Below are positions 163-53,934 of a stretch of DNA of 64,000 nt, piece after piece. The notes beneath the pieces are model-generated. The model worked only from the letters and a program-made list of their open reading frames with translations, did no database searches and was not told the origin of the DNA. Location of the stretch: positions 20,401,001-20,465,000 of the forward strand of contig NC_081820.1 of assembly GCF_030704535.1 (NCBI RefSeq). The letters are read 5' to 3'. The position numbers were made by a program, and so were the translations under genes. Within the stretch, counting starts at the first letter, position 1, and each line of letters opens with the position of its first letter. Source of the DNA: Vitis vinifera (taxonomy: Eukaryota > Streptophyta > Magnoliopsida > Vitales > Vitaceae).

Positions 163-1487
163 GAGGCCACTCTGGTATCCGGCCCATGCGGCTGCCCAGG
201 GTCAAACAAACAAATGACGTCCCAACAATTAGGCATTGGTATAAGTCTCAAGATTACTCAAGGTCTTGAAATTTGTGTGTTGATACGCTGAGTCAAACCT
301 GATATCTAATTGATTTTCAGGAGGTTGAAGATGATTAGACACCATCATAAAGCCTAGGAATGAGTCAAGGTCCTTAGTTGGGTGTCTTATTTCAGATGAG
401 TCAAGTCCCACATCAGCTAGTTGCTTTTCAGTTGAGATGACTAGACGTTATCTCAACATATAGTACCTTCCCACACATTATTTTTGGATGACCAATAACT
501 TGATTATTTACGGTGATATGGTTTTTTTCCCTCACTTTTAAGATTAGTATAATCATATTTTTTCATTCATTGAATAAGTCAAAAAAAAAAATCAATTTGG
601 TATATATATATATATACCTTATATAATTTCCAAATTTTGAGGTAGTAAAAATTGTCTCATATATTAATTTTTTTAAAAATAATTTTTTTAAAAAAAAATC
701 ATATTTTTGATGTAAGTTTTTAACATTATTGTATTTTATATAAAAATTATTATTATTTCATATTTTTAAAAACAAAAACATATGAACTTAATGTTTTTTA
801 CTTTTACAATAAGAAACTTATGTAAAATATTTATGTATCTTTAAAAATCATTTTCAAAAATTTTAAAACTTGAGGTAAAAAAAAATATTTGATACTTCAA
901 TTTTTTAAAACAATTTTTAAAATTGTTTCTTTTTTAATGTAAGTCTTTAAACATTTTTATATCTTATATCAAAATTACTATTTTTTTTAATTTTAAAAAC
1001 AAAAAAGTAAGAAATGTATACAAACGATACTAATTTATTAAGTTATCAAAAATATGGTCAGTTTAATGCTTAATTAAGGAGAGATATGGATTAGTTGATT
1101 AGAAATTCAGAAAGTATTACTTTGAATTTAGGAGATTTTGATTATTTGTAAAGTTTCTCATACTGTGCTATTTTAACAGCCCTCCATATCATCTGTTTTG
1201 TGTGAATATATAGCTTGCTTTTGAACCCTAAGTTGCTCTTTTATTTTATTTTTTATTTTTTAATTTAATAACAGATTCTGTGAAAAATTGGCTAATTTTT
1301 ATTCAAAGAACTTGTAACTTAAAAAGAAAGAGAAAAATTAAACTTAATATAAAAGTCAAAAACATATTATTTATTGTAGAAATTTTATTTTGGTTTATAT
1401 ATAAGTTATTTCATATTTAATAAAAATTTTACCAAATAAATATTATCTTTTAAAAATTGTAACTTTAATTTCAGTTTCAACTTCTAA
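163..1487. other. AT-rich intergenic DNA, no gene seen
   Basis: About 1.3 kb of AT-rich sequence with homopolymer runs and a short TA microsatellite near 600-616. No ORF with recognisable protein similarity and no clear repeat boundaries were seen. Confidence 0.6.
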
Positions 1488-1910
1488 TGTGATATCCCAC
1501 GTTGAATAGGGGAAAAGTTGTTGAGACTAATATGTATGAACTCTTCTTAACTTTGTAAATGTGTTTTAAAGCCGATAACCTCTTTGAGTCCAAGACGAAC
1601 AATATCTGCGCTATTAAATGCAGGTCGTTACAAATGGTATCAAAATCGATCACCGACTCCAATGTGAGGGTTTGTTTGACCCCTCATGAGGGATGTTTGT
1701 CTAGTTGATCTCGTAATCTCATGAAACACAATAAAGACATTGCATTTGCATAACGGGTGTTTGTGATATCCTACGTCAAATATGGGAAAAAGTTCATGAC
1801 AATATATAAGTATGAGTCTATCTTAACCCTTTAGATGTATTTTAAAGTCATGAAAGTTCTTTTAGACTCAAAGCAGATAATATCTACATGATTGAGTATA
1901 AGTTGTTACA
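1488..1910 (+). mobile_element. TRIM (miniature LTR retrotransposon)
   Basis: Two direct repeats of about 145-149 bases, 1488-1632 and 1762-1910, both begin TGTGATATCC and end GTTACA, as LTRs should (TG..CA). Immediately after the first is TGGTATCAAAATC (1635-1647), a decayed form of the initiator-Met tRNA primer binding site TGGTATCAGAGC. The 129-base interior has no coding capacity. Flanking 5-mers TCTAA (1483-1487) and TCCAA (1911-1915) match at four of five bases, a plausible target duplication. This is a non-autonomous terminal-repeat retrotransposon in miniature. The LTRs have diverged from one another, so the insertion is old. Confidence 0.75.
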
Positions 1911-4139
1911 TCCAACTAAAATCGACAATAAGAATTAGCCAACCTAAATGGGTTTGTAGTATGAAATTGAATACATTAGTGCTTAAACTTGAGTCTATGA
2001 GAGTTCAAACTGAAGACCCTTTAAATGAGGGGCCAGGCAAGGCAGTATATCCACAATAGCTACCCTAATGACAATTAATGTCTAGCTAATTCCTACATTT
2101 ACTGACCTTTGCACTTATATATATATATATATTAGCATAAATGGGAAACCTATATAGAGAGAAAATGCTTTATATCAAGCTGATCAGCGAGCTTACCATA
2201 TAAAAGTTGTGCATGGGCAGATTAGGTCACAATATCACCTTAAGCCGAAGCAGTCACAGGGCAACTCTCCTTTGGCAAGTCACATCTTTTTACTGCAGCT
2301 AAGCTATGTATATTCATATATAGGAGCCAGTGCCTGCCAAGAAAGAGGTGCCCTATGATTGATTTACTTACAGAAGTCGCTTCCTCTTCCTGCATGGCTC
2401 CTCTCCGGGCTGCTAAATTCTTGTTTTACATGTAAGCTCTTTACCATCTTTATATATATAATAGGTGCTTTGATTTGAGGCCAAGAGATGGAATAAACCG
2501 ATAACACAATGGCATATGCTAGAGGGAGTAGGGGGTTATGCTGTGGATATCCTTGAAAAGCAGCTTTTCTGATCATGCAAGATTTTGTTGAAAAAGCTTT
2601 CTCCGGATGATGAGATTCTCCATCTCTCCTTGTCCATGCTTTTCTCAGTGAGAAGGGGGAAAAAGCAGTTGAGAGGAGATGCTCTTTCCTACATTCTTCC
2701 ATATGTAGATTATGAAGATGGCTTATGGCTGATGACTGATGTCTGATGGCTGATAGCTGATGGCCTTCACATGGCATATCCTTGCTCATATTCTTCCCCT
2801 CTTTGCTTTTGCTTTTACTTGTTGGCCTTTCGGTGTTTCCAAGTTCAAACAACCCTTCGCCCCATTTTCGAATTTCCCAATGCATTTTCTGATTAATATA
2901 TATTTTGAAAGTTTTTTTTCTTTCTCTTTCTCTTGGGTGGAAAAATGTTTTCAAAATTCCCAATGCATTTTCTCATTAATATTTGTTTTGAAAGTTTTTT
3001 TCTTTTCTCTTCTCTTATTGTTTCGGGCATTTTTCTTATTTATGAATAGAGATATAAATAAAAGGTCCTTTCCCTAAGTTCTTGAATGCAATGATCATAG
3101 CCAAAAAAAATTAAAATTAAAAAAAAAAATCACTATCCAAGTACATCCTAATCACTTTCCTCCCTAAGTGTATTACTCAAAATTCATCTACATTAATATT
3201 TTTAAAAAAAAAATCTATATATTTATAAAAATAAAAATACATTTACATATTTTTATAGAAAAATGAAAAAAAAATTATATAATACAATTATAATTTTTAT
3301 TTTTCCTTAAAATTAAAAAAAAATGAATATTATTATATAAGATAATATATATTAAATATATATATTATAAAAATATTCAATTGAATTCTCTTTATGCTCG
3401 TGTTATTTAAACTTTGGTATGAATCTAATCTTAAAATAAAAAAATAAAAAAAAATAAAAAATAAAAAAACCTTAGTTTAACCTCAATTAGAATATTACAC
3501 ATGATTGTCCAAGTCCATCAAAGTATCAACCTATTCCAATGTGGTTAGGTTAACTACTCCAAGTTCCAACCCTAGTGATGAACCAACCAACATTAATGGT
3601 TGTGTTGAATTCTAGATATTCATGGTAGTGACGGATCTAATACAGGCAGGAGTTTTTGAATGATACAAACCTCCAAAATAGACCATTCGAGGATGTTTTG
3701 AGTTTCATATTTCCTTAGCTAGGCTTTTCCACTAACCACAAAATAATTACTACCTACTCCACCAGGTGCAACTCCACTGGTTGCAATCGTCCAAGGTTGG
3801 ATCAACCACCTTGATAGGTGGTTACTTATTCCTAGTCCACCACCCCTCTTATGTAGGTCATGGATGACATCGAAAACACATGGGGATGTTATCCTAAAAA
3901 TCCTTCATATGACTCAGCATCTCACATCCAATCTGATTTGTTTTTATTATTTACATCATGATATCACTGCAAAGCTTTTAATGAAACAGTGACAGATTAG
4001 TAAATATTTGGACTAAACTAGATGGAAAAACTTCTAAAATTTCTAATTCTCTTAATTCTGAATTCCTGCCATAGAATTCATTTTGACACACTTGGCAAGG
4101 TAATCGGAGACCTGTGAAGCGTTGTCATGTTCATGCATG
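1911..4139. other. Intergenic DNA with a local duplication, no supported gene
   Basis: Mostly AT-rich. A decayed TGATGGC-type short repeat lies at about 2705-2765. A roughly 70-base segment around CCCAATGCATTTTCT is tandemly duplicated at about 2875-2935 and 2957-3020. A 199-codon minus-strand ORF crosses this region (2364-2963) but shows no family motif and runs through the simple repeats, so I do not call it a gene. Confidence 0.5.
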
Positions 4140-4850
4140 ACAGGCGCCTGTACGCTAACTTTTCTCTGTGGATAAGTATAAGGCAGCTCAACCGCCAACA
4201 GACCGCCTCACAAAATGGATAAGAAAAGTAAGGAAACTATTGGGTGCTGCAGGGACCACCGTGCTCCATTGCTGCAGTCGTTATTTAACCCTCCAAAATC
4301 ATCAAACAAACTTCAAACAGTGGATCAATGATTTGATCATCACCAAGGGACTGCAGAATCGACGGCTCTGATATGGAAGCACGACAGTTATATTACACGA
4401 CATCTTACCCCATCACCACTTCAAATCCCCTGGGTAACGGACACTAGCCCGTAGTGCGGCGGAGAAACCGGCACATCCCGCAGATGTACCGCCAAGCAAC
4501 CGGGAACTCCCAGGTGTTTACCGGGAACAGCCGGTTCCCTCCTCACTCCATATGATAATCACAGACGGTAATGGGATGCGTCTGTGATGTTCTAGTGTGG
4601 ATATTTTCTCGGGAAAGTGGAGCATAACGATAAAGAGAAAGAGATAGAGGGAAGATGAAAAGATCAGTGGAAACAAGGAAGATGGAGAATCAGAGGATAG
4701 AGGAGAAAGCACCACCTATGATCATAGCCACCACTAAGGGTAACTCCTCTGGAAGAAAGCTGGACACCATTTATGAAGACAAGGACCCACATGGACGCTC
4801 TCAGAATCAGACGGCTGGGGTCTCTTGTGCCAACTCTGAAGGGTGACTTA
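4140..4850 (+). other. GC-richer island with two short unassigned ORFs
   Basis: This stretch has clearly higher GC than its flanks, especially at 4430-4560. It holds two short plus-strand ORFs, 4168-4371 (67 codons) and 4655-4846 (63 codons). Neither shows a domain, signal peptide or membrane segment that I recognise, and their products are polar and rich in charged residues. The block lies just downstream of the first GMC oxidoreductase gene, which is on the other strand. It could be a small transcript, a gene fragment or a decayed transposon end; the sequence alone does not decide. Confidence 0.25.
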
Positions 4851-5274
4851 CGCTGTGCTCCTTTCTAATACATATATGTGATGTGTATCTGTAAATTACT
4901 TCATTTTCAGTTCCTGTCATGGGGTTGACTGAGAGATGGTAAAGTTCTCAGCTTTTTTCATAGTTCAATATCAGGACCGGTCATGAAACGTTTTGGTTTG
5001 AATCTTGCTGGTTTTACTAATTGTATCACATTTTCCTTAAGTTTTTATTTGTCTTCTTCTATTTGTACTTAGTTTTTCTTTATGAGTACTTGTAATCTAA
5101 TACTTCTTAAGACAGTATTGTAATTTTACAGAGCTTCCATTCGTAATGTAGTTGAAGCTATTTATTAGCAGCAGCTGCAGCAAATCCTTACTTCTCACAA
5201 TTTCAAACCCACTTGATAAAGCCCAAAATAGTAATAATAATAAATAATAAATAAAAATCACAATTTTTGCTACT

Positions 5275-7480
5275 TCATCTTTCACCAAGAATCTTCTCCC
5301 CCATGTACCTGCATTGGAAAATTAAAAGGAAAAAAAATCAGTAATAATGGAAAAAATACGAATATTTGATTATGATAAATGACTAGGTACCTTCCAAGCA
5401 TCATAACAGTAGCTTGTGGATTAGTCCCCGGAGAGTGATTAAAGGTAGAACCATCTATAATTCTTAGCCCATCCACGCCAATAACCTTGTAGTCTGGCTC
5501 CACCACTCGCCCAACATGGCAGCCTCCATGATAATGCCAGATCGTCATTACAGTGTCTATGCAAAACTGTTCTAAGAAGATGGAGGCGCCGACATGTCTG
5601 GGCCGCAAGTTCACTGGGGAATATACCATCATATCTATAAGAAGTTGGACTGGTATGTGGGGGAATCGGAACTTGGAGAAGGCTTTTGAGTTTATGACTT
5701 TTATGATGGTGCGCATGCCTTCCACACATCTCTGGAGGTCCTCGGGCTCCTCGAAGTAATTGAAGGTGACATATGGGTTGTCTTCTGGGTTGGTGGTTCG
5801 GAGCTTCAGGTGGCCTGTTGAGATCGGACCTTTGATCTTCTCAAGGATGATTCCACCTCTCACTGTTGCTTTCATCATGGTGTTCATGGCTTTATGGGCT
5901 TTCTCCGTACCTTTTGGGTTTGTAGAAGCATTGGATAACTGTTCAGGAGGCCTGTGAAACCAAGAACGGATGATATCGGAACCGCTAGCGGCTTCGATGT
6001 AACTCCCAAACGTGGTGATGCCCACGACTTGGATGAGGGAATTTTCGACGGGCCGTGGAGAGGGAATGGGCAGGGCATTCATTGGGTTGTCAGCCATGCC
6101 TTGGCCAACCATGGGCTGCTCCAGAATCACTGGGATACCATGGGCCTTAAGATGGGACTCAGGCCCAATTCCACTCAGCATCAACAATTGTGGGCTTCCA
6201 ATCGCGCCAGCTGACAATATGATCTCGCTCTTGGAGTCCCTCCTATACGCATTATGCCTGACTCCTACTTCATCTCTAAATATCACACCTGAGGCTATTG
6301 GCTTTGATTCTCCTGCATCAACCATCATCATAAAGATGAAAAAGCATTAATTTCACAATCATATCAAACATATTGCCCAACATTCAGAATATCTCATTTT
6401 CCCTATAGAACAATGCTATTTTATGTTGTCAGAAAATCACTTGGACATTTTCGATTTTTTTTAGATTAATGTTCGTAGCAGCTTATAAAAATGGGTATCC
6501 CCCAAACAGATCATCGAATATATACAAGGTTATGCAAACCCTAAACTAATGTTTTTCGTCCTTAATTCTAGGGGTTTGTGATTCAAAAATATATATTGTA
6601 TCAACACGTTATTAAATCTTACCATGCAATCTAAACTCAATCTTCTCCACTGTTGCATGTAAGAGAACAACAATATTTTTAGGGTTGGCATACTCGAGCA
6701 AATCAGCAGCAGTGTGTCTGTGATCCTGATGATCGAATATGGTTCCGCCAACTTTAGTCCCATACAAATGTTCATAGCTAAATCCATTGTATGGCAACAC
6801 ACCTGCCTCCAGCAATCCATCTCTGACAGCAGACTGCCACTGCAGCATCGGGGGCTTGAACACCACCTTCTTTTCCACCCATTCATAAGATTCCTTCACC
6901 AGTCTTTCGTCCCAGCCTGAGCTTTTTACGAAGCCGGCGCTAGCTCTTGAATAAAAACCAGCATTCAAGGCGCTTCCACCACCTAGAACACGGGCTCGAG
7001 TGTTGAAGACTCCATCTTCAGAGATGAAGGATTGGGAAGGTGATAATGGAGAATTGTCCAAAATGTTGGCAAAGAACGAATCCAGGTTTCTTATCTTAGG
7101 GTTGCCATAGGGCGAGCCTCCTCTTTCAAGCACCAAAACGGTAGCGTTTTGGGAGAGAGTTGCAGCCAATGCACAGCCAGAGGTTCCACCCCCAATGATT
7201 ATATAGTCGTAATATAGGTTTGGTGGAGCCTGTTTTGCTTCTTGGAGGAATGAATAATTGGGAGCTGCATATGGAGAGTATAACAAGATCCATTTTAATG
7301 GAGAAATTAATAAACAGAGAAACAAAGCTTTGCATCTTATATTTTTCTGATCTTTATATGTAATGAAATATCAGTATTCAGTGAGAAATTCATACCTTTC
7401 TCTGAGTAACAGAAGCCATGAAAGAACAGTAATACTCCAGCAAGAGCTGCACCAAAATTTCTCCACCACCTCAAACCCAT
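5275..7480 (-). CDS. GMC oxidoreductase, HOTHEAD family (copy 1)
   Basis: Predicted flavoprotein of the glucose-methanol-choline family; plant HOTHEAD-type members are FAD-dependent alcohol oxidoreductases linked to cuticle fatty-acid metabolism. Four exons on the minus strand: 7396-7480, 6623-7264, 5391-6312 and 5275-5308, all GT..AG, joining to 1683 bases (560 residues). Exon 1 alone encodes a hydrophobic signal-peptide-like leader (residues 1-26). The FAD dinucleotide motif GGGTSG is at 53-58. GMC signature 1 (RARVLGGGSALNAGF) starts at 118 and signature 2 (GAIGSPQLLMLSGIGP) at 278. The active-site HYHGGC and the C-terminal GTNPQATVMMLGR are present. Exon 4 adds only about 11 residues, so a single-frame reading that runs through intron 3 gives a wrong C-terminus. 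Secretion is inferred from the leader. Exact substrate unknown. The copy looks intact. Confidence 0.9.
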
Positions 7481-8377
7481 AATCTAATTAACTTCAGGAT
7501 CCCAACCTCAAAAAACACTTTCTGGGACTTCTCTAGAAAATCTAAACCAGACTAATAAGCTTTATGTCTGCTCAACATATCAATCTCTACCGCGTTACAT
7601 GAATGAGCTCAAAACCATGCAAGGATATCGGTTTCAATACACTGGAGACATGAAGTTGTAGCTCAACAACAAGAATTGCTTGCAGCCATTCCTGCAGGGA
7701 TATAAAGATTTAGTTCAGTGCCCAAGAAGGTAGCTACCCAGCTTGTTGAAATGCCAATATCCCTTCCCTTTTATCCCTTTGGTTGTAGAAAAGGGTGCCC
7801 ATACAGCTTGTTGGTAGAACTTGCATAATTAATATGGTATATATTGTTTGGTTAATTTAGTAGACCCTGAGACTTCGTAACGGACAGTTGGCAAGTGATT
7901 AATGTCTCCAATTAATTAATGAATATCCAAAAGATATCATCAATCAAAAGATGTCATCAATCAACCATATATAAATATATATATATATACATATATAAAA
8001 TGTTTTATAAGACAAAAGTTTGTTAGAAAATATGAAATATTTTTATCATACTTCTAATATTTTTAAATATTTTATATATCTATTTCTATATTTTTAATTA
8101 TTATACATATTTGCATATTTATTTTTTAAAATAACCATTCAAAAATAATTGAAAATGACTAAAAGATATTATTTAAAAACATCATATTTTATATTTTAGA
8201 AAGAAAATAGTTTTTTAATTGTCAAAAGTGTTTTCCTATTTTTTATTTTAAAGAACAAATTTTTTTTTTAAATAGTTACCTAACAAAGCCTAACCCTTGT
8301 TTTTTCTTTTCTTTTTTTTCTTTTTGTCTTTCTTCCTTTTTTATAACTCCTTAAGTTTGATATTATTATAGCATTTT
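7481..8377. other. Upstream region of GMC copy 1 with MITE-like block
   Basis: Bases 7481-7970 are the 5' flank of the gene and match 13626-14080 upstream of copy 2. Bases about 7995-8290 form an AT-rich block ending ATAGTTACCTAACAAAGCC. It resembles the hAT-like MITE remnants at 30.4 and 37.6 kb and matches about 14590-14905. Confidence 0.5.
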
Positions 8378-11297
8378 TCCTTTAAAATTGAACATGTCAA
8401 TGTAATTCTCCAAATACGATGCACTTTGAACATTTTGCTAAAAGAAGAAAAAATGTTTGCATATGGTTTTGATTTAGAGCAAAAGAAGATAATTTAGGTG
8501 AGTTCATTAACTAGTACACTAACCAAATTAGAGAGAGTCTGGGAAAATGAAATGTTCCAACCTATCCACTTCCAATGAATTAACAATTATAGGCCATGGA
8601 GCCATCCCTTGGTTGTGACAACTCAACCATACTAAAATAATCATATTTACCATGTTTTTCTAACCCGAGAGGCACACAACTTCATATATATTGACGAATT
8701 TGTCATGAGGATGATTTTTTTTAATTTCAACTTAGCCTAGCTCAAAGAGGTATTTCATGCTAAGAGTTACCAATTGGTGTAGTGTATATTATTATTAGTG
8801 TTTAGTTGGTAATTATTGATCCCTGAATTTGGAAAAATTTGTTATTGTAAAAACGTGCGCTCTAACGTCTCAATTTGTGAAATCTATAAATTTCACATTT
8901 GAAATTTCACCTACCATTGACCTATGATATATATCTTAATTAATCAATCTAAGTAAAGTAGTGAATTTAGAATTCCAAATTAAGAAGAAAAAATGTTTGC
9001 ATATGGTTTCGATTTAGAGCAAAAGAAGAAAGTTTAGGTGAGTTCATTAACTACTACACTAACAAAATTAGAGAGTTTGGGAAAATGAAATGTTCCGACC
9101 TACCATAATGAATTAACAATTATTGGCCATGGAGCCATCCCTTGGTTGTGACAACTCAACCATACTAAAATAATCATATTTACCATGTATTTCAAACCCG
9201 AGAGGCACACAACTTCATATATATTAACGAATTTGTCATGAGGATGCTTTTTTTAATTTCAATTTAGGCTAAAAGAGGTATTTCATACTAAGTGTTACCA
9301 ATTGGTGTAGTATATATTGTTATTAGTGTTTAGTTGGTAATTATTGATCCTTGAATTTGAAAGTATTTGTTATTGTAAAAATGCTCTAACAACATCTCAA
9401 TTTGTGAAATCTATAAATTTCACATTTGAGATTTCACCTACCATTGACCTATGATATATATGTTAATAAATCAATGTTAGTAATGTAGTGACTTTAGAAT
9501 TCCAAATCAATCTCATAAAGAAAATGACATGGTCAATAAAAGAATTTAAGTGGAATATCTTATTACAAGTTCAAAAATCACAATCATTCCAACTACTCAA
9601 AATCTACTATTATTGATTTTCTTATCGAACTCAATCCACATGATTAATTTCCTACCTCCTACTATCTTTTCACAATTCATGGTCAATGCTTCACTAATTC
9701 GAAATCACTTCACCCTAATTAATCTTTAGGATCTCACCTACCTACATCTTACCAATGACACTAAAATGGATGAATCATAGAATGGACTCATATATAATTC
9801 AAACATTCAAGTGAAATATTGTCAATGACACAAACTCTCCATGATGATCTTCATGGCCCATTTTTGCCCCCAATTTCGAATTTCGTCATCATGGAAGATC
9901 CCTCTATGTATTCCCTCTTTGGGACTAATAATTTGAGTTTCAAAAGTTTGAATTTAAGCTTGAAATGTTTGGTTTTAAAATGTGACAAAAGTAAGCATAT
10001 TTTCCTAAATTTTTTTTATACTAGTGACTTCCAAGAGAACAATAAAATTAATATTCATTTGGTTTTGATTAATTTTTTTCCTTTAAAATTGAACATGTCA
10101 ATGTGATTCTCCAAATACGATGCACTTTGAACATTTTTCTAAAAGAAGAAAAAATGTTTGCATATGGTTTTGATTTAGAGCAAAAGAAGAAAATTTAGGT
10201 GAGTTCATTAACTACTACACTAACCAAATTAGAGAGAGTCTAGGAAAATGAAATGTTCCAACCTACCCTAATGAATTAACAATTATAAGCCACGGAGCCA
10301 TCCCATGGTTGTGACAATTCAACCATACTAAAATAATCATATTTACCATGTTTTTCAAACCCAAGAGGCACACAACTTCATATATATTGACGAATTTGTC
10401 ATGAGGATTCTTTTTTAATTTCAACTTAGCCTAAAAAAGGTATTTCATGCTAAGTATTACCAATTGGTGTAATATATATTGTTATTAGTGTTTAGTTGGT
10501 AATTATTGATCCTTGAATTTGGAAGTATTTGTTATTGTAAAAATGCTTTAACAACATCTCATTTTGTGAAATCTATAAATTTTGATCACATTTGAGATTT
10601 CACCCTATGATATATATGTTAATTAATCAATGTTAGTAATGTAGTGAATTTAGAATTCCAAATCAATCTCATAAAGAAAATGACATGGTCAATAAAAGAA
10701 TTTAAGTGGAATATCTTATTACAAGTTCAAAATCACAATCATCCCAACTACTCAAAATCTATTATTATTGATTTTCTTATCAAACTCAATCCACGTGATT
10801 AATTTTCTACCTCCTACTATCTTTTCACAATTCATGGTCAATGCTTTGCTAATTCGAAATCACTTCACCCTAATTAATCTTTAGGATCTAACCTAGCTAC
10901 ATCTTACCAATGACACTAAAATGGATGAATCATATAATGAACTCATATCTAATTTAAACATTTAAATGAAATCTTGTCAATGACACACAAACTCTCCATG
11001 ATGATCTTCCGTTGGCCCATTTTTGCTCCCAATTTCGAGTTCCGCCATCGTGGAAGATCCATCTATGTATTCCCTCCTTGGGACTAATAATTTGAGTTTC
11101 AAAAGTTTGAATTTAAGCTTGAAATGTTTGGTTTTAAAATGTGACAAAAGTAAGCATATTTTCCTAAAAAAATTTTATACTCGTGATTTCCAAGAGAACA
11201 ATAAAATTAATATTCATATGGTTTTGATTAAATTTTTTTTTCCTTTAAAATTGAACATGTCAATGTAATTCTCCAAATACGATACACTTTCAACATT
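8378..11297. repeat. Array of a 1.16-kb unknown tandem repeat
   Basis: Units begin with CTTTAAAATTGAACATGTCA. Unit 1 (8378-8983) keeps only the first half. Unit 2 (8984-10078) lacks about the first 70 bases. Unit 3 (10079-11240) is complete, and unit 4 (11241-11297) is cut off at the start of duplication copy 2. A single further unit lies at 14974-16146. Short ORFs at 9819-10106 and 11023-11268 are the same repeat position and look non-coding, since the reading frame is not preserved around them. I do not recognise a transposon family. Confidence 0.7.
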
Positions 11298-11414
11298 TAC
11301 AGAGCTTCCATTCGTAATGTAGGTGAAGCTATTTATTAGCAGCAAATCCTTACTTCTCAAACTTTCAAACCCACTTGATAAAGCCCAAAAAAAAAAATCA
11401 CAATTTTTGCTACT

Positions 11415-13625
11415 TCATCTTTCACCAAGAATCTTCTCTCCCATGTACCTGCATTAGAAAATTAAAAGGAAAAAAAAAATCAGTAATAATGGAAAAAAAA
11501 AATACGAATATTTGATTATGATAAACGACTAGGTACCTTCCAAGCATCATAACAGTAGCTTGTGGATTAGTCCCCGGAGAGTGATTAAAGGTGGAACCAT
11601 CTATAATTCTTAGCCCATCCACGCCAATAACCTTGTAGTCTGGCTCCACCACTCGCCCAACATGGCAGCCTCCATGATAATGCCAGATCGTCATTACAGT
11701 GTCTATGCAAAACTGTTCTAAGAAGATGGAGGCACCGACATGTCTGGGCCGCAAGTTCACTGGGGAATATACCATCATATCTATTAGAAGTTGGACTCGT
11801 ATGTGGGGGAATCGGAACTTGGAGAAGGCTTTTGAGTTTATGACTTTTATGATGGTGCGCATGCCTTCCACACATCTCTGGAGGTCCTCGGGCTCCTCGA
11901 AGTAATTGAAGGTGACATATGGGTTGTCTTCTGGGTTGGTGGTTCGGAGCTTCAGGTGGCCTGTTGAGATCGGACCTTTGATCTTCTCAAGGATGATTCC
12001 ACCTCTCACTGTTGCTTTCATCATGGTGTTCATGGCTTTATGGGCTTTCTCCGTACCTTTTGGGTTTGTAGAAGCATTGGATAACTGTTCAGGAGGCCTG
12101 TGAAACCAAGAACGGATGATATCGGAACCGCTAGCGGCTTCGATGTAACTCCCAAACGTGGTGATGCCCACGACTTGGATGAGGGAATTTTCGACGGGCC
12201 GTGGAGAGGGAATGGGCAGGGCATTCATTGGGTTGTCAGCCATGCCTTGGCCAACCATGGGCTGCTCCAGAATCACTGGGATACCATGGGCCTTAAGATG
12301 GGACTCAGGCCCAATTCCACTCAGCATCAACAATTGTGGGCTTCCAATCGCGCCAGCTGACAATATGATCTCGCTCTTGGAGTCCCTCCTATACGCATTA
12401 TGCCTGACTCCTACTTCATCTCTAAATATCACACCTGAGGCTATTGGCTTTGATTCTCCTGCATCAACCATCATCATAAAGATGAAAAAGCATTAATTTC
12501 ACAATCATATCAAACATATTGCCCAACATTCAGAATATCTCATTTTTCCTATAGAACAATGCTATTTTATGTTGTCAGAAAATCACTTGACATTTTCCAT
12601 TTTTTTTAGATTAATGTTCGTAGCAGCTTATAAAAATGGGTATCCCCCAAACAGATCATCAAATATATACAAGGTTATGCAAACCCTAAACTAATGTTTT
12701 TCGTCCTTAATTCTAGGGGTTTGTGATCCAAAAATATATACTGTATCAACACGTTATTAAGTCTTACCATGCAATCTAAACTCAATCTTCTCCACTGTTG
12801 CATGTAAGAGAACAACAATATTTTTAGGGTTGGCATACTCGAGCAAATCAGCAGCAGTGTGTCTGTGATCCTGATGATCGAATATGGTTCCGCCAACTTT
12901 AGTCCCATACAAATGTTCATAGCTAAATCCATTGTATGGCAACACACCTGCCTCCAGCAATCCATCTCTGACAGCAGACTGCCACTGCAGCATCGGGGGC
13001 TTGAACACCACCTTCTTTTCCACCCATTCATAAGACTCCTTCACCAGTCTTTCGTCCCAGCCTGAGCTTTTTACTTCGCCGGCGCTAGCTCTTGAATAGA
13101 AACCAGCATTCAAGGCGCTTCCACCACCTAGAACACGGGCTCGAGTGTTGAAGACTCCATCTTCTGAGATGAAGGATTGGGAAGGTGATAATGGAGAATT
13201 GTCCAAAATGTTGGCAAAGAACGAATCCAGGTTTCTTATCTTAGGGTTGCCATAGGGCGAGCCTCCTCTTTCAAGCACCAAAACGGTAGCGTTTTGGGAG
13301 AGAGTTGCAGCCAATGCACAGCCAGAGGTTCCACCCCCAATGATTATATAGTCGTAATATAGGTTTGGTGGAGCCTGTTTTGCATCTTGGAGGAATGAAT
13401 AATTGGGAGCTGCATAGGGAGAGTATAACAAGATCCATTTTAATGGAGAAATTAATAAACAGAGAAACAAAGCTTTGAATCTTATATTTTTCTGATCTTG
13501 ATATGTAATGAAATATCAGAATTCAGTGAGAAATTCATACCTTTCTCTGAGTAACAGAAGCCATGAAAGAACAGTAATACTCCAGCAAGAATTGCACCAA
13601 AATTTCTCCACCACCTCAAACCCAT
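11415..13625 (-). CDS. GMC oxidoreductase, HOTHEAD family (copy 2)
   Basis: Tandem copy of the gene at 5275-7480 with the same four-exon structure and identical exon lengths: 13541-13625, 12768-13409, 11537-12458 and 11415-11448 (560 residues). Splice borders are all GT..AG. The FAD motif GGGTSG, both GMC signatures, the HYHGGC active site and the C-terminal GTNPQ are intact. Differences I found from copy 1 are few: Ala12 to Ile in the leader, Glu37 to Asp, Phe140 to Glu just after signature 1, and a Pro to Arg change in the HIPVQLL segment. Expected role is the same, a secreted FAD-dependent alcohol oxidoreductase of the cuticle-related family. Substrate unknown. Introns are also nearly identical, supporting a recent duplication or gene conversion. 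Confidence 0.9.
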
Positions 13626-14973
13626 AATCTAATTAACTTCAGGATCCCAACCTCAAAAAACACTTTCTGGGACTTCTCTAGAAAATCAAAACACTCAACT
13701 TATCAATCTCTACCGCGTTACATGAATGAGCTCAAAACCATGCAAGGATATCGGTTTCAATCCACTGGAGACATGAAGTTGTAGCTCAACAACAAGAATT
13801 GCTTGCAGCCATTCCTGCAGGGATATAAAGATTTTAGTTCAGTGCCCAAGAAGGTAGCTACCCAGCTTGTTGAAATGCCAATATCCCTTCCCTTTTATCC
13901 CTTTGGCTGTAGAAAAGGGTGCCCATACAGCTTTTTGGTAGAACTTGCATAATTAATATGGTATATATGGTTTGGTTAATTTAGTAGACCCTGAGACTTC
14001 GTAACTGAGAGTTGGTAAGTGATTAATGTCTCCAATTAATGAATATCCAAAAGATATCATCAATCAAAAGATGCCATCAATCAGCCACATATATTTTAAT
14101 GTTCTATTATTTTTACTTCAATCTCATTGTGTTTGTGACTTATATTTGATCTCTTATTTGTTTGTTTTATGGCAACCCACTTGTGAAATGCTTTGGCCCA
14201 GTCTCTAGATTCTCTACTCACATTCCAATGAGGGGAAATTACTCCAAGGAGAATGAGGGTTTTGATTAGCATCTTGAGATGTTTTCCGAGTAAGGCAACA
14301 AATTAATTTTCTTTGAAGTAGTTCAACTGCATGCTGCCCCTCAATGAAAAGTGGAGTCCCAGAAATTTAAAGCTTGGTAATGGAGAATGAGGTGGGACTG
14401 CCTTGGATTCTTTGAAAACGGAACTCATAATAAAACACAAACCTGCCTTTATCATGGTTGAAAATTTATTGGCCGAAGAGTTAGTAGCCCTTAATAAATG
14501 CATTAACTCTTGGGTTGTTAAGAAAGATGCTAAAGCCCAAGTGGTGACCGTTTTCAAAAATACTTATGAAAAATAGCCTTTTAAGAATTTTAATTGATAT
14601 TTTGTAAAACAAAAGTCAGTTAGAAGATATGAAATATTTTTACCATATTTTTAAATATATTTTAAAAATATTTTCTATATCTAGTTCTATATTTTTAATT
14701 ATTATACATATTTATATATTTATTTTTTTAAACAATTATTCGAAAATAATTAAAAACGACTAAAAGATATTATTTAAAAACACAACATTTTATATTTTTA
14801 GAAAGAGAATAGTATTCTAATTGACAAAAGTGTTTTCCTATTTTTTCATTTTAAAGGACAAAATATTGTTTTTTTAAACAGTTATCAGGCCTAAGTCTTG
14901 TTTTTTTCTTTTTCTTTTTTCTTTTTTCCTTTTTTTTTTAACTCCTTAAGTTTGATATTTTTTTATAGCATTT
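13626..14973. other. Upstream region of GMC copy 2, no gene
   Basis: 13626-14080 matches the 5' flank of copy 1. 14085-14585 is unique to this copy and holds short ORFs without recognisable features. About 14590-14905 is the MITE-like block also found at about 7995-8290. Confidence 0.5.
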
Positions 14974-34674: not shown

Positions 34675-36908
34675 TTAGAGATTAAACATGACCTTGATAG
34701 CATTACCCCCACGAGCACTGGTTTCAAAGGCTTCCTCCACATCCTTCTGTGAGAAAGTAAACCTGTGGGTTATCAGGGGTTTAACATCAATCTTGCCACT
34801 CCTCAAAAACTCAAGGCAGAGCGGCCATGTGTTCCTATAGCGGAATATGCCAACAATATCGACCTCCCTGTTGCCCCAAAAGAAAAACCACAATTATTAA
34901 ACATACAAAATCAAGCCCTAAACAAAAGTAGAAGCATAGGATAGAAAGAAGATGGAGGTCGATGTAACTCTGTTGGGGTGGGGGTGTGTGGGTTCTTCCC
35001 AAATTCAACACCCAGAAGTATGGTTGGTTTATCAATGGAACAGTGAAAGTAAAAGAAAACCATGGTTTAAAATCTGGACTGGACTGGTCGGTCCGGACTG
35101 CACTATCCTCCAGCTGCCGCCGCTGGACCCGGCGCCTATGAGGATGCTGTCAGTCCTCTGAATCACCGAATTGCAAAGTTGGAATATTGCATTTTATTTT
35201 TTTTATTAATATTTAATATTTTATCGTATATTGATTTATTGAATATTCATTATTTATTATTCATTTCTCATTAAATCAATTTAAATTTGAATCATTTCCA
35301 CTTTACTTTATTTTTATTTTATATTGATTTTTAAAATTTCCTATATGAATTTAATTATTTTATTTTAATAATATATAAAATATATATTTTGAGATCACCG
35401 TTCCAGTGTTCAAATTGGATCGTTGATCAGAACCAATAACTTTTTGGGTTCTGAAAACATTGAGGAAAACGATCAAATATAGATGACAAACAGAGAAATC
35501 ATAGATCAATTACCTGGCAGCAGCTGGAGTGAGAGGAACAGTCATCTCACTCTGGGCCAAACCCACAAGGCAAACTTTACCGCCTGCTCGAGTCGCGTTC
35601 AAAGCTGTTGACATGGTTTTGTTGAAGCCGACGCAATCAAAGCTCACATCAACTCCAGTAACCATTGTGCTTTGTATTTTTGCCACTTCTTCATCTAGAT
35701 CCTTCAGAGGTCAAAACCAATAGTATTGTTAAATGGAAAGAAATGGAATCCCTTACCAAATGATAGATTTTCAAGGCACTAGATATATGTGGTAACTCCT
35801 GGTTCAACACCCCTGGTGCTTAGGCCTGGAATGAAGGAAATATACTTGGAAATAGTTAGACCAAACCTGAATATTCGTTGAAACCCGGATAATGTCGTCT
35901 GCGCCAAGATCTTTTGCAATAGCTAGTCGCTGATCATCTACGTCCACAAGGACAATCCTCGGCGCTCCAAAAGCACGAGCAGCCAGCATTGTGACAAGGC
36001 CGATGGGGCCTGATCCCATGATCAGTACGTTGGTCTCAGGGCCAACATTAGCACGGCGACAAGCATGGATGCCGACACTGAGCGGCTCACACATTGCTCC
36101 TTCCTCCAAGCTCACATTGTCAGGTAGCTTGAAACAAAGATTTGAAGGATGGACCACCTAGTACAAGAAAGAGCATATTGTCAAGGCCAGGCATCATCCC
36201 CAAATGGTCACTCCAAGCTAAAGGAAAACCCACATCAAAGAAGACCCAACAAACCATAAAAACTAAAAGCTCTGTTTTCAACAGAGCAATTACCTGGTTA
36301 GCTAGAGAACCATTGGTTGGAGGAGATCCAAAAAACTTCATTTCTCTGCATAGATTGTATTGACCATTCCTGCAAAGACTGCATCGGTTGCAGCTAATAC
36401 CGGGCTCCAGAGCAACCCGGTCACCTGCTACAAGATTCTTCACTTCACTCCCAACTTCTTCTATGATGCCAGCACACTCATGCCCTATCACCATTGGCTT
36501 CTTCACAATGAAATTTGCGCACCTCATTGTCTGATAAGATTGAGAAAAAAGAAAAAGGAAAAAACCCTGAATTAGTCTTTGAGTCAAGAAGGTCTATAGT
36601 AGAAAGCAAATGAGAATTGCAGAGATGACTCCACCTTGAAGTGATGAACATCACTTCCACATATCCCTACAGCTTTGATCCTAACTTTGACATCATAAGG
36701 GCCTAAAACAACACAAAATTAAAGGGAAATTATGAAATGATACTTGAAAGAAATAAAACATAAAGGGAGGAAAAGGAATGATACCCAGAGAAGGGAGAAT
36801 GTAGGGTTGAATCTTGAGGGTCTTGATGCCCAGAAGCCAAGCTGCCATGTTCTCCTCTCCATGCTCCTTGCCTGAAACAGCATCCTCAGAATTGCCTCCT
36901 TTCCCCAT
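34675..36908 (-). CDS. LIDH: L-idonate 5-dehydrogenase, copy A
   Basis: Zinc-dependent medium-chain dehydrogenase of the sorbitol dehydrogenase family. As I recall, the 366-residue grapevine protein oxidises L-idonate to 5-keto-D-gluconate in the ascorbate-to-tartrate pathway. Six exons on the minus strand: 36785-36908, 36635-36702, 36294-36530, 35867-36157, 35514-35701 and 34675-34867 (1101 bases). Catalytic zinc ligands are Cys56, His81 and Glu82, with Glu167 nearby. Structural zinc cysteines are 111, 114, 117 and 125. The NAD-binding GSGPIG is at 191-196 and acidic Asp215 indicates NAD rather than NADP. Unlike gene C, it has His62 after GSDVH and GSPP at 132-135. No targeting peptide is obvious, so cytosolic. 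Intron 5 carries an insertion absent from copy B. Confidence 0.92.
35063..35486. mobile_element. Insertion in intron 5 of copy A
   Basis: Intron 5 is 646 bases here but 269 in copy B. The extra sequence begins around GGTTTAAAATCTGGACTGG, with GGTCGGTCCGGAC nearby, followed by a GC-rich then AT-rich interior. It ends near 'gatcagaaccaataac'. This composition is typical of plant MITE-type DNA transposons, but exact ends and a target duplication were not resolved. Confidence 0.45.
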
Positions 36909-37198
36909 CTCTCTCCCCTGCTTTCACAACTCACACACAGAGAGCTCTGGACCCTCACTCTGAGCTTCTCACAGGCTTTATCCACCCAATGGAATCAATC
37001 CTTTTGGGTATACGTCCAATCACAGCCACAGCTTGTCAATTATTCTGATATCCTGTTGGCCCATGAGCTGCAATCAATACAACTTTTCCTTCTATAATTG
37101 TTTTTTCTTCAAATTTATCTCCCCGTAACAAAATGTCAGATTTTGTTTCCCTTCTTGTTTGAGCTAAAAGCTGTTTCCTCGTCATTTTCTCCTATTTC

Positions 37199-37204
37199 CA
37201 CGTG
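37199..37204. promoter_or_regulatory. G-box upstream of LIDH copy A
   Basis: CACGTG, 291 bases before the start codon, embedded in TTTCCACGTGTGA. The same site is conserved upstream of copy B (49551-49556) and missing upstream of fragment D. G-boxes are bound by bZIP and bHLH factors; use here is inferred. Confidence 0.45.
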
Positions 37205-37609
37205 TGACTTTTTCACAAGATTTTTTCTCAAATGTTAAGATACCATAATTCTTTATTCCACCTCCAAGATTATCCCACATTTGAAATTTATTTCAAATTA
37301 AATTTAGATAAATATGAAGCAATTTATTTGAAATTAAATTTGGATAATCGTTTCTAACGATGCCCATCGGATGGGGGTTCCAAATATTCTTTTCTAAATC
37401 TCAGTTCGTACCATTTTAATACGAATGTGTTTGCTTTTATTATATAGAGAACGTATTCAATACTAAATGTTGGACAATGGTCCCATCTCCCAACTACTCT
37501 GTCTTAAATGGCTCCTCCCCTTTGGATGGGTTTTTGCTATTCAAAAAATATTTTTCCATTGGGAGGATTAAAAATAAGTATCTCCAAACTGAATGACCTT
37601 CAAGCATGA

Positions 37610-37990
37610 AAATATTGGTTATTTAAAAACTATTTTTAAAAATAGATTTTAAAAACAGTTTTAAAAAAATTTTGTCTAATATTTTATAAAATAAAAATTT
37701 ATTTAAAAATCTAAAATATTTTTAACTTGTTTTTAATATTTTTATATATTTTTTAAAAATAATTTTTATACCTCGTATTTTTATTTTTAATTATTCTATG
37801 TATTTATATAATAAAATTTTAAAATAATTAAAATAATATTTTATAAAAACACTTTATTTTTTATTTTAAAAATAAAAAATAAAAAATAATTTTTAATTAT
37901 TAAATATGTTTTCCTAATTTTTTATTTTAAACAACAAATAACTGCTATAAAAAATAGTTACCATTGATAGTCATTCTATAAATAAAAAAA
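37610..37990. mobile_element. hAT-like MITE remnant
   Basis: AT-rich block. Its left end (GGTTATTTAAAAACTATT) and the complement of its right end (ACTATCAATGGTAACTATT) are imperfect inverted repeats, of the family seen at 30.4 kb. Confidence 0.4.
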
Positions 37991-38158
37991 TAAAAAATAA
38001 AAACTAAACTTAGTAAGAAATCTCTCTCTATTTGCCAAATAGGTGAATAAAAATTTTAAAATTTAGTTATTTACACAATGAATTTTGCTCCAAAATATAC
38101 ATACCTATAAAATTTGTACTTTTACCAAGTACTTGATAGATAATTTGTTAAACATCCC

Positions 38159-39086
38159 GAGTTTAAGACCAAAATAATATATTTATAAAAAAAAATGATA
38201 AGAATAGTATCCATTTGAAAATATTTGTCAAAGTAGTCTTCTTTATCCACGTAAGCATCCACATGGATTTTAGAGTTTAAGACCAAAATAATATATTTGT
38301 AAAAAAAAATGATAAGAATAGTATCCATTTGAAAATATTTGTCAAAGTAGTCTTCTTTATCCACGTAAGCATCCACATGGATTTTAAGTGTAAAGAACCA
38401 CCGTTAGTGACTGTGGTTTTAGAACTTACAAAAATTTCCTTAAAACCACAGTTACAAACTGTGGTTTTACAATTTCTCTTAGAACCACAGTTACTAACTG
38501 CGGTTTTAAAAGAAGTTTCCTTAAAACCACAGTTACAAACTGTGGTTTTACAATTTCTCTTAGAACCACAGTTACTAACTGTGGTTTTACAATTATTTTT
38601 AATCCATTCCCATTTTAATGGTGTTATAATTTTAATATTATTTTTAAAATATTTTTTTTATCAAAACAACCATAAAACCACAGTTAGTAACTATGGTTTT
38701 ACTAATGGTGTTGTAATTTTAATATTATTTTTAAAATAATTTTTATCAAAATAACCATAAAACCACAGTTAGTAACTGTGGTTTTACAATTATTTTCAAT
38801 CCATATCTATTTTAATGGTGTTGTAATTTTAATATTATTTTTAAAATATTTTATCAAAATACCCATAAAACCACAGTTAGTAACTGTGGTTTTACAATTA
38901 TTTTCAATCCGCATATATTTTAATGGTGTTGTAATTTTAATATTATTTTTAAAATATTTTTTTATCAAAATTACAATTATGTTGTAATTTTCACAAATAT
39001 TTTTAAGGGGACTCATGTATAAAAAAGTATGGGATTTTAGAACTTTGCTTTTCACAAATTTTTTTGTTACGACTGTTTTAAATATG

Positions 39087-39144
<58 letters not shown>

Positions 39145-39985
39145 ATCTTTATTTTTTCATATTTTCCTTGAAAATTTGAGAAAATAATTTGGTCTACATG
39201 CATTCCCATAAAAATTTATATATTTATAGTAAATAAAATATTTATTTGTTTTACAAATATTTTCACATATGAACTAAAGAAAATTATTTATTCATATTAT
39301 TTTTAAATTTTAAAATAACTAAAGAAATTGTTTATATTATTTTAAAATTTTATCTTTTCATATGAAAATTAATGTCAGTGATTATGATTTTAGGTTATTT
39401 ATTATTAAGTATGATTTGAACTTATGTCTGGGTTAAAATGTATAATTTTTTAATTATATGAAAGAAAAATAGGTAGTGGTTGTAATAATTTATTTAGTTA
39501 GAATTTATTTCATTTATACTTTAGGATGCATTTGAGTTTTATTTGTTTAAATTATCAAGGAAACATGTGAATAATATAACATCACTAATTTGAATAACTG
39601 TGGTTTTATGGTTGTTTTGATAAAAAAAATATTTTAAAAATAATATTAAAATTATAACACCATTAAAATGGGAACAAATTAAAAATAATTGTAAAGTTAG
39701 GAAATTGTAAAACCACAGTTTGTAACTGTGGTTTTAAGGAAACTTATTTTAAAACCGCAGTTAGTAACTGTGGTTCTAAGAGAAATTGTAAAACCACAGT
39801 TTGTAACTGTGGTTTTAAGGAAATTTTTGTAAGTTCTAAAACCACAGTTACCAACGGTGGTTCTTTACACTTAAAATCTATGTGGATGCTTACGTGGATA
39901 AAGAAGACTACTTTGACAAATATTTTCAAATGAATACTATTCTTATCATTTTTTTTTATAAATATATTATTTTGGTCTTAAACTC
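38159..39985. mobile_element. Inverted-repeat Mutator-like element built of self-palindromes
   Basis: Non-coding element of 1827 bases. It begins GAGTTTAAGACC and ends with the exact complement GGTCTTAAACTC, and is flanked by the 9-base direct repeat AAACATCCC (38150-38158 and 39986-39994). The inverted arms are alignable for over 400 bases; the left arm has an extra tandem copy of its first 117 bases. The arms carry at least twelve copies of a self-complementary unit, half-site AAAACCACAGTTA facing its complement. Left-side copies start near 38397, 38443, 38491, 38525, 38563, 38675, 38757 and 38867; right-side copies near 39708, 39751, 39790 and 39838, with a half copy at 39594. The loop holds a TA repeat (39089-39141). 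The 9-base duplication and long inverted ends point to the Mutator superfamily. ORFs in the arms are not genes. Confidence 0.85.
39089..39141. repeat. TA microsatellite
   Basis: TATA repeat inside the loop of the inverted-repeat element. Confidence 0.95.
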
Positions 39986-40485
39986 AAACATCCCCATCAA
40001 ATATGTATTGACCCCTCCTCCCCACTTGCCCACCTACCCCCCTTGTTTTTCTTTTTTTCTTTTTTCTTTTTCTCTAATTTAAAAAAAAAAAATTTGAGGA
40101 TGGCAATTAAGTGGAAAAGAATGAAAAGGAAAGAAAAGGAAAATAATAAAGATGTTATGTTGGGTTTTGATGAGTGTCGGTGGGTTGGAAAAAAAAAAGG
40201 GGAAATGTTATTTTCATGCCTAAATAGGGTGGGGGGTGGAAGTGAAGAAATTTTGCATTCTTATCTTTAACGGTAGCCAAATTAAATTTGGTGTGGTGAT
40301 GTTATGGAAACAATCAACATAAGTTGACCCATCCCAACATCAACTACCCTGATGTAATTGTTATAATTCTAATATTTATAATTTATATTATTATAATAAT
40401 CTTTATTTTAAATTTTTTTTTAAGTATTTTTAGAGGACAACGACATTAGACATTAAATTGTGTCTATATTTAGAGTCATGTTTGA

Positions 40486-51788: not shown

Positions 51789-53934
51789 CTCTCTCCCTCT
51801 CTCCCCTGCTTTCACAATTCACGCACACAGATGACAGACCTCTGGACCCTCTCTCACAGCCTTTATCCACCCAATGGAATCAATCCTTTTTGGTACACGT
51901 CCAATCACAGCCCACAGCTTGTCAATTATTCTGATTTCCCTTTGTGCCATTAGTCGTTATCAATTTAACTTTTCCTTCTATGAATGCTTTTTCTTCAAAT
52001 TTTATCTCCCTGTAACAAAATGTCAGATTTTCTTTCCCTTCGGAGTTGAGCTAAAAGCTGTTTCCTCGTCATTTTCTCCTGGTGACTTTTTCCCATATTT
52101 GAAATTTACTTCAAATTAAATTTAGATAAATATGAAGCATTTAAGAAATTAAATTTGGATAATCGTTTTTAACGAGGCACATATATGGGGGTCCTAATAT
52201 TCCTTTTAAATTGTCAGTTTCGTACAATCATATAGAGCACGTCTTTAATAACACATGTTGGACAATGGTCCCATGGCACATGATACATGTTGGGGTGTTT
52301 TAAATGGGTCGTCCTCTTTGGATGCTTTTTCTTTTACTACTCAAAAAGTAATTTTTATTTGAGAGGATTAAAAGTTTATGTCATTAGGTGAAATAGAAGC
52401 ACTTTCAAATTGAATCACATGAGAAAGAGAAAAACCTTTAGGTTATGTTTATTCTCAAAAAATATTAAGAAAAAAAATATATAAAAAAAATCAAATATAA
52501 TTAAAACTAATTAAAAACTTATATATTTTTAAATTATTTAATTTTTATATTAATGAGTTAAAATAAATTTGAAATAACAAAAAAAAAATTTATCAACTTT
52601 TAATCTATTTTTTATTTTTCTTCACTTTTTCTTTCATTCTACTTTCTTTCCTTTACATTTTCTTTTAAATTTTCTGAGAACCAAACATAGTCTTAGTAAA
52701 ATTATATGTATAAAAGCATATAAAAGTTGCTACAAGCATGAAAATAATAACATATCATTATTTTAAGGCTTATAAGACTACCAATCTTATAAAAAAAATC
52801 ATAAAAATATTCACAAAAAACTTTATATTCAATCAAAAAAACATCTCCATCAATTATCCATTGACCCCTTCTACTCCACTTGCCCTACCTGCCTCCCTCA
52901 ATTTTTTATTTTTTATTTTTTAAAAAATAATTTTCCTTCTTGTTTTCTTTTTCTTTCCCATTGTGTGACAACCATATAGCCAATAATAATCGCCAACCCC
53001 ACGACATTGATTGCATCAACCTTTTTCTCTAATTTAAAAAAATTGAGGATGAAAATGAAGGGAAAAGGAGGAAATGAATGGAGGAAAATGAAAGAAAACA
53101 AATAATTGAGAGGTTGTGTTTGGGTTTTGACGAGTGTCAGTCCATCTGAGTAAAAAAAAAAAAAATGTTATTTGATTAAAAAGTTCATAAAAAATTTAAT
53201 TTTAAAAATCTAATCATTTCTTTTTCTTTTTTAATCATATTTGGATAAAAATATCTTTATTCTTTTTTTATAAAAATAATTATTTCTTTTAAAATTTACA
53301 TATAATATTTGAATTAATTAAGGATATTTATGTACAAAAAACATAAACGAGATTAAATTTACAAGTATATGAATTATTTTATCATTTTAACCAATTAATT
53401 CAAAAAATATATTCTTTCATGCCTAAATAAAAGAATTGATTGATTAAAATTGATGAAATAATTTCCAAATTTGTAAATTTAATCATCTCCATTCTTTTTT
53501 AAAAAATAATAATAATACATTTTGGACATAAATGCATTTTGTCATTTCAAATATTTACATATAAGTTTTATAAGAAATGATTATTTTTATAAATAAATAA
53601 AAGTCAAATTGGGCAAAAAAAAATTTGAAGGGTTAAATTTTAAATTTAAGGTTTTGAAAACCCCTTTAATCAAATAACCCTAAATAATAAGAAGAAAGTG
53701 AAGAAATTTTGCATTCTTATCCTTTGTTGATAGCCAAAGTAAATTTGATGTGGTGATGTTATAGAAATAATTAACATAAGTTGACCCAATCCTACATCAA
53801 CCTACCTGATGTAGATAATATGGACATTTGTTTTCTAGATTATATTTTTCTAATTTAAAATAATTTGAATGCGTATCTAATTTTTAGTAATCTTCTTTGG
53901 TTTGGTATTTAAGACGTAACGCTTTCAATTTCAA
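51789..53934. other. Promoter remnant and AT-rich DNA of unit D
   Basis: 51789 to about 52380 matches the promoters of copies A and B but has lost the G-box segment (near 52080). The sequence AACATCTCCATCAATTA near 52840 is the empty counterpart of the insertion site of the 38159-39985 element. The rest is AT-rich with no gene. Confidence 0.6.

Follow-up and report, generated by a model that had tools for sequence, protein, structure and literature searches.

A palindrome-filled fold-back element of grapevine, very probably derived from the right ends of large Mutator-like transposons that encode a plant mobile domain

The window, a stretch of 64,000 nucleotides from Vitis vinifera (contig NC_081820.1, positions 20,401,001 to 20,465,000; located in G000:C16 of the 495.6 Mb, 21-contig genome that was searched), contains an inverted-repeat element of 1,827 bp at 38159-39985 with the nine bases AAACATCCC outside both ends, exactly the bounds proposed in an earlier reading made from the letters alone (here the sequence-only reading). 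Paralogous blocks on both sides of the element carry pieces of zinc-binding dehydrogenase (PF00107), which we take to be sorbitol or L-idonate dehydrogenase, and within 34800-40000 the element is situated upstream of a minus-strand paralogue of this enzyme whose exon pieces lie at about 34.8-37.0 kb. To the left of the element there is also a tandem duplicated block (5125-7973 and 11296-14093, 96% identity) that contains a reading frame for a GMC oxidoreductase. The features of the element and of the site once proposed as its empty counterpart are as follows.

38150..38158, no strand: left target-site duplication, sequence AAACATCCC
38159..38272, plus strand: outer left terminal repeat, 114 bp, with the family end GAGTTTAAGACC
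38273..38386, plus strand: the 114-bp left terminus repeated in tandem (99% identity)
38273..39594, plus strand: region matching in order, apart from indels, the last ~1.4 kb at the right end of large Mutator-like elements, read inward
38396..38586, no strand: left-arm palindromes 1-3 (38396-38418, 38444-38466, 38483-38505) and 4-5 (38525-38547, 38564-38586)
38676..38891, no strand: left-arm palindromes 6-8, which belong to longer repeat units (38676-38698, 38761-38783, 38869-38891)
39091..39141, no strand: TA microsatellite in the element interior
39594..39595, no strand: fold-back junction, where the sequence common with large elements stops at ..CACTAATTTGAA and the inverted arm starts
39595..39985, minus strand: inverted arm, repeating the right terminus of the large element
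39711..39862, no strand: right-arm palindromes 9-12 (39711-39733, 39753-39775, 39792-39814, 39840-39862)
39872..39985, minus strand: right terminal repeat, 114 bp
39986..39994, no strand: right target-site duplication AAACATCCC
52839..52847, no strand: paralogous target AAACATCTC; homology to the right flank of the element on its right side, none on its left

The exact inverted ends that had been claimed are present, the first 23 bases being identical at both ends, and complementarity between the ends reaches 98% over the terminal 114 bp; the arms 38265-38557/39701-39993 and 38586-38686/39595-39695 are 97% complementary each. The twelve self-palindromes were likewise recovered: 12 of the type AAAACCACAGTTANTAACTGTGGTTTT were counted at <=3 mismatches, every one within the element (24 strand matches in the window against 0.01 expected from shuffling). 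A feature overlooked in the sequence-only reading is the doubling of the left end, whose terminal 114 bp stand in tandem only in the window copy among the 20 copies read. With long, internally repetitive inverted arms able to pair, the element has the structure of a fold-back, and its 114-bp terminal inverted repeat plus longer arms are of the kind found in Mutator-like elements (MULEs). The predicted RNA fold of the element has -798 kcal/mol, whereas 12 mononucleotide shuffles averaged -311 (sd 12). Neither a MULE transposase nor a plant mobile domain (PMD) was shown by the window copy. Membership in CACTA was considered and rejected, the ends (GAGTTTAAGACC) and the 9-bp duplication being different from CACTA termini with a 3-bp duplication. 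It had also been claimed that a paralogous unit near 52840 preserves the pre-insertion site. The right 60 bp of the site at 52839 do match the flank on the right of the element (alignment score 60, reached by 0 of 2,000 shuffles) and the target AAACATCTC is similar; however, the left 60 bp gave no alignment with the element's left flank (p = 0.43), and a full two-sided empty site was thus rejected because its left side is unsupported.

Other copies with the same ends and 9-bp duplications, by which the sequence-only reading had proposed that its claim be checked, were detected throughout the genome. A 31-base end pattern gave 87 matches (42+45) at <=3 mismatches (control 0), and the 27-base palindrome motif, with two free middle bases, gave 179+195 exact strand matches genome-wide (reversed-pattern control 0). 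Twenty full copies of the window type (type A) were read, namely the window element, L009-L018, the two in L019, L020-L025, and L027. Every one is flanked by a 9-bp duplication, which is perfect in 19 and has one mismatch in L013; their lengths are 1,365-1,827 bp, they contain 9-14 palindromes per copy, and their identity is 96.0-99.8%. The window element is a member of a young, amplified family. One locus (L019, G000:C2:768369-771602) harbours two window-type elements separated by 90 bp, and a 9-bp duplication flanks each of them (both read by eye from the flanks, and both matching). L028, with 16 palindromes and an identity of 81-86%, is a different fold-back.

By examining ten-kilobase stretches adjoining unpaired ends, we identified large elements, and all six for which completion was attempted were completed by short fetches at the predicted left end. 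All six are 9.8-11.9 kb in length with perfect 9-bp duplications (TGACATCCG in L030, GTTTTGAGT in L036, GAAATTATT in L047, AGAAAAGAA in L029, GCGAATGGG in L026, and CATTAATCC in L046); an internally deleted one of 7,850 bp (L037) has a 9/9 duplication, and another of 9,343 bp (L035) has 8/9. Pfam comparisons revealed an 860-aa frame in L047 with MULE (PF10551, 1.1e-18) and DBD_Tnp_Mut (PF03108, 2.6e-11) domains, a SWIM domain in L046 (PF04434, 1.7e-6), and PMD in L033 (PF10536, 7.2e-55). The guess that the window element is Mutator-like is well supported by the right end that it has in common with these large elements, by the 9-bp duplications, and by these transposase domains. An autonomous partner with the same ends had been suggested as a further check, and the large MULEs, which contain a transposase and share the right end, answer to it.

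In the transposase search, 53 of 1,243 candidates were scored and 57 matches were obtained, three of which cover all 860 residues at 97-100% identity with no stops; PMD copies are present both with and without stops. Of 53 transposase loci (taken from the 57 rows after four small locus fragments were dropped), 43 have a PMD on the same strand and <=6 kb downstream (counts with 106 and with 150 PMD rows agree), and none of 150 of the 151 PMD matches lies on the opposite strand within 8 kb of a transposase. For 22 of the 35 unpaired ends in the genome-wide end search, a transposase or PMD lies on the side where it is expected; reading covered four of the other 13 (L032, L039, L041, and L043), nine lying outside it. 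More distant PMD-MULEs have about 57% transposase identity.

In the stretches of large elements that were read, the palindrome array follows PMD at the right end. Compared with the right terminus, the left one (GAGTTTACGGCCAAAGTAG..) has ~67% identity (80 of 119 columns in one element). Over the 188-1,679 bp covered at the left, none of eight elements yielded a convincing palindrome (in L047, L029, L026, and L046, about 1-1.4 kb close to the left end lies outside this span), the left end of L035 having one chance-like hit with 4 mismatches. Between transposase and PMD the large elements carry a tandem array of ~152-155-bp repeats (L047, about 4506-5595) whose copy number apparently varies, the gap between the two genes being only about 620 bp in one sister element. 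Another locus (L033, G000:C19:7929700-7939600) contains two large elements (1-5084 and 5115-9901) whose right ends face each other 30 bp apart and which are 99.98% identical over 4,787 bp (1 mismatch); they represent either an inverted duplication of very recent date or two insertions next to each other.

Read inward from its inner left terminus, the window element is colinear, apart from indels, with the right end of large elements for ~1.4 kb, interior included, and then switches to an inverted copy of the tip of that right end; both of its termini are therefore right ends. This origin of the two arms in one end of a larger element had escaped the sequence-only reading. All 13 large elements tested read on through the switch point as CACTAATTTGAATTAACACTTT.., while the 20 small copies enter the inverted arm at one common junction point. 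In 12 of the 20 the arm begins TTACAACACCATTAGT.. (one has TTATAACACC), and AATTA, which is common to the arm start and the parental junction sequence, constitutes a 5-bp microhomology when read by eye. In the remaining eight, including the window copy (TAACTGTGGTTTTA), the arm begins at a palindrome centre, which is most simply explained by later deletion. The element in L023 is the sole one of the 20 in which the junction anchor ATAACATCACTAATTTGAA occurs twice (59 bp apart, about 1259-1340). Taken together, these comparisons indicate that the window element is almost certainly a non-autonomous right-right fold-back derivative of a PMD-encoding MULE. It was in all likelihood mobilised in trans by the family transposase, and we consider the two propositions jointly to be just as probable as the second. 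Probably DNA synthesis at the right end of a large element switched strand at the AATTA microhomology and made the junction, hairpin-forming palindromes helped this switch, and the family transposase would cut at the conserved terminus of the resulting fold-back, leaving 9-bp duplications.

Other right-right fold-backs with different interiors were found as well (L028, L042/L045, and L055, and the older L038/L039/L056), from which we infer that they originated independently. Perfect (9/9) duplications flank L028, L042, L045, L055, and L056; none was detected for L038 when up to 2 mismatches were allowed, and the end search did not recover the right end of L039. A further element of 701 bp with an 8/9 duplication (L032) has one bare left end and one palindrome-bearing right end. 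Since it inserted with one bare left end, palindrome arrays on both sides are not required.

A sister group of transposases, 70-73% identical to that of the window family, carries PMD too. At the right end of one sister element (L061), AAAACCGTAGTCACCAACTACGGTTTT and AAAGCCGTAGTCATCAACTACGGCTTT are clear palindromes, and two degraded ones were recognised by eye. The sister motif was detected at 270 palindromic sites genome-wide at <=1 mismatch (control 0); this total and that of the free-position search below are whole, and placements in either search refer to 50 listed palindromes. Among the 50 listed for the sister motif, 11 neighbouring pairs have a spacing of 1.2-1.7 kb, every one of them mirror-symmetric, and five pairs lie 10.6-12.7 kb apart, all five enclosing PMD and three of them a transposase too (the pairing used a hand-picked subset of transposase and PMD positions, and the full list places no transposase in the other two long pairs). 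A 7.2-kb pair (C1:21582104-21589314) and a 46-bp pair fell outside these size classes and were omitted. As judged from the listed pairs, sister left ends also bear a palindrome. In two large sister elements on C7 the loop is CACCA at the right and TACCA at the left; among the matches listed, 10 of the short pairs have CACCA on both sides and one has a variant on one side, so that short sister pairs look like two right ends, as at the right ends on C7. However, three other large sister pairs have TACCA at the right, and a right-right structure of the short sister elements is thus likely only.

One sister fold-back (L062), from a short pair, was read: it is 1,460 bp in length with AACATTATA on both sides (9/9) and 30/30 terminal bases matching, and both of its arms match L061 at 81-94%, with no blastn match at 1e-5 to the fold-back L045 or to 2.3 kb of the right end of L036. 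A 581-bp relative with its own 9/9 duplication (L057) has the palindrome AAAACCACAGTTGGTAACTGTGGTTTT, whose sole difference from the listed sister version AAAACCGTAGTTGGTAACTACGGTTTT is a mirrored AC/GT exchange. When both exchange positions were left free, 508 sites were found genome-wide. Among 50 distinct sites listed, 24 have AC/GT, 16 GT/AC, 2 AT/AT, and 8 are one transition away, with no other combination; the free positions are exactly complementary in 42 of the 50 (tallied by eye, sites within arrays and copies not being independent). Palindrome loci without a listed end were considered as members of another superfamily, which was rejected since four of four checked were family relatives (C9:2603517 and C9:24094462 lie outside this check); for L058-L060, likewise family relatives, the sequence read includes one end. 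At G000:C1:24040281-24041554, two mirrored copies of yet another dyad variant (CACAGT../..ACTATGG) stand 1.2 kb from each other, possibly marking another fold-back family.

Between the sister groups, the motif, its length and its subterminal place have been kept and its changes are mirrored, while the tested non-coding DNA no longer aligns. A mirrored palindrome in a related transposon suggests docking sites that evolve with each element, and we lean slightly towards the view that the palindromes are dyads, specific to each family, at which a dimeric protein encoded by the element binds, either the transposase or the PMD protein. Such a role would explain why right ends were copied onto both sides. 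The motif halves presumably resemble plant MYB sites. The cooperative transposase binding sites suggested in the sequence-only reading are still a candidate role, which the symmetric change of the dyad between sister groups supports; on the other side, no extra constraint on stems was found within the family. At orthologous positions, palindrome stems were not less variable than spacers in 23 type-B/large-element ends (p = 0.46) or in 40 type-A ends (p = 0.41; L028 kept out of type A, and the ends of L035, L038, and L039 not included), and stronger constraint on stems than on spacers was rejected. In a descriptive comparison the terminal 114 bp were least variable, below both stems and spacers. 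Selection on palindrome structure within the family found no support at the present depth (21 double changes, 15 of them mirrored, against 29 expected). Substitutions within the family at G/C sites were mostly of the C-to-T type, and A/T sites revealed no clear difference. As redundant sites in an array may each be only weakly constrained, these null results lower the binding reading and do not remove it.

The main rival is that the palindromes are by-products, that is, hairpin-prone, self-templating DNA kept symmetric by strand switching with no binding role. The lack of extra stem constraint and of excess double changes within the family, the variable array size among type-A copies (9-14 palindromes), and the junction at a palindrome centre in eight of 20 copies speak for it. 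However, L062 cannot be aligned by blastn at 1e-5 with L045 or the L036 right end and yet bears a 27-bp dyad at the same subterminal place, this dyad differs mainly by mirrored changes, and the free positions at the 50 listed sites are exactly complementary or, in eight, one transition away (sites that are not independent). We regard this explanation as somewhat unlikely, although it deserves serious consideration.

A second rival, to which we give a slightly lower chance, is anti-silencing of the VANC kind, in which the array would be a private target of PMD or another factor that lifts silencing, and fold-backs would spread with two arrays. The same-strand PMD that 43 of 53 transposase loci have no more than 6 kb downstream, the location of the arrays in non-coding DNA downstream of PMD and their difference between sister groups, and the finding that all four checked palindrome loci without a listed end are family relatives would fit it. 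Against it, large-element left ends are without an array where read, and we know of no DNA-binding activity of PMD. As for published precedents, VANC21 binds dense arrays of short motifs that differ between VANDAL families (PMC5735166, PMC10398659, in the parts drawn on here), and Ikeda et al. proposed that MULEs employ PMD against silencing (in the part of PMC5418596 used here); however, the VANC21 motifs are in one orientation, and palindromes are not mentioned in the main text of PMC5735166.

Still less probable, in our judgement, is that the fold-backs act as a source of small RNAs, their transcripts forming long hairpins that would feed siRNAs and silence the family in trans. The strong predicted fold (-798 kcal/mol versus a shuffle mean of -311) points in this direction, and the G/C-site changes of mostly C-to-T type are those expected if the element is methylated; trans silencing by a long hairpin has a parallel in maize Mu killer. 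Such an activity would, however, harm the element's own spread, and the family is young and amplified. Finally, an old segmental duplication or an assembly artefact instead of a transposon has next to no chance, for although tandem paralogues are abundant in the window, it is refuted by the 9-bp duplications at 20 dispersed copies with different flanks.

Returning to the binding-dyad reading, a broader and more tentative scheme, which we advance as possible and on the basis of sequence comparison, is that in one lineage of PMD-encoding plant MULEs subterminal arrays of 27-bp dyads might constitute a private family address, re-written symmetrically at family splits and read by an element-encoded dimer (transposase or PMD protein) for transposition, for anti-silencing or for both, with parasitic fold-backs arising repeatedly by copying of the address-bearing right end onto both sides. 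Whatever the role of the palindromes, the material provides a worked pedigree from a large transposon to a miniature fold-back whose junction is visible at base resolution, accompanied by symmetric fold-backs in a sister group. Sister MULE groups with mirrored putative docking dyads offer a natural swap experiment on the co-evolution of a protein and its DNA address, and the little-understood plant mobile domain is thereby placed beside a putative dyad address.

The comparison with known systems draws on parts of the cited papers. MuDR-type Mutator-like elements are similar in their 9-bp duplications, long terminal inverted repeats (TIRs) and, in the partner, a transposase with MULE, DBD_Tnp_Mut, and SWIM domains; they differ from the large element described here, whose TIRs are ~67% alike and which has a palindrome array at one end and PMD as second gene. 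The Mutavine elements (Benjak et al. 2008, PMC2528002) are grape MULEs, several of 9-11 kb, with 9-bp duplications where found, for which ULP and not PMD was described, and the words "foldback", "palindrom", and "mobile domain" are absent from the main text of that survey; compared by description alone, the large element may be one of the Mutavine families. Among open-licence papers we found none that joins grapevine, MULE, and plant mobile domain and, by titles and abstract starts, no grape example in those on foldback or palindromic MULEs (a barley MULE paper is PMC9168764). With its terminal repeats in tandem (38159-38272/38273-38386) and AAACATCCC outside, the window copy matches the type 3 multi-TIR MULEs of Ferguson and Jiang (2012, PMC3310237), which have one additional solo terminal repeat at one end and are mostly single copies; the families in the parts of that paper drawn on here are from tomato, rice, maize, and Arabidopsis.

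Complex long TIRs with internal repeats are known from Tm1 of root-knot nematodes (PMC3169594; 9-bp duplications) and Muta1 of Aedes (PMC5225508; 8-9-bp duplications), both of which comprise transposase-bearing and non-autonomous members; in contrast to the 27-bp dyads here, their internal units are about 14 bp in Tm1, 12 bp in Muta1, and 9-15 bp in related Aedes families, and the sections of the two papers used here make no mention of PMD. An association of MULE transposase with PMD was described by Ikeda et al. (2017, PMC5418596); in the part of the paper used here the two are fused into one protein in grasses and Amborella, whereas the large elements of this eudicot have both in one element (43/53 loci) with PMD as a separate downstream frame; according to the portion of Nicolau et al. 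(PMC7156037) used here, PMD of eudicots is mainly genic PMD-C. VANDAL elements with VANC proteins (PMC5735166, PMC10398659) are also Mutator-kind transposons with dense, family-specific motif arrays in non-coding DNA whose units are gained and lost, and a family-specific motif array in non-coding DNA is present here too among the matches listed; their motifs are in one orientation, unlike the dyads here. MULEs with foldback-like, repeat-filled ends and MULEs with extra tandem ends are already known; unusual here are the 27-bp dyad arrays at one end of the large element, the mirrored way in which the dyads differ from one sister group to the other, and the occurrence of symmetric fold-backs in each of the two groups.
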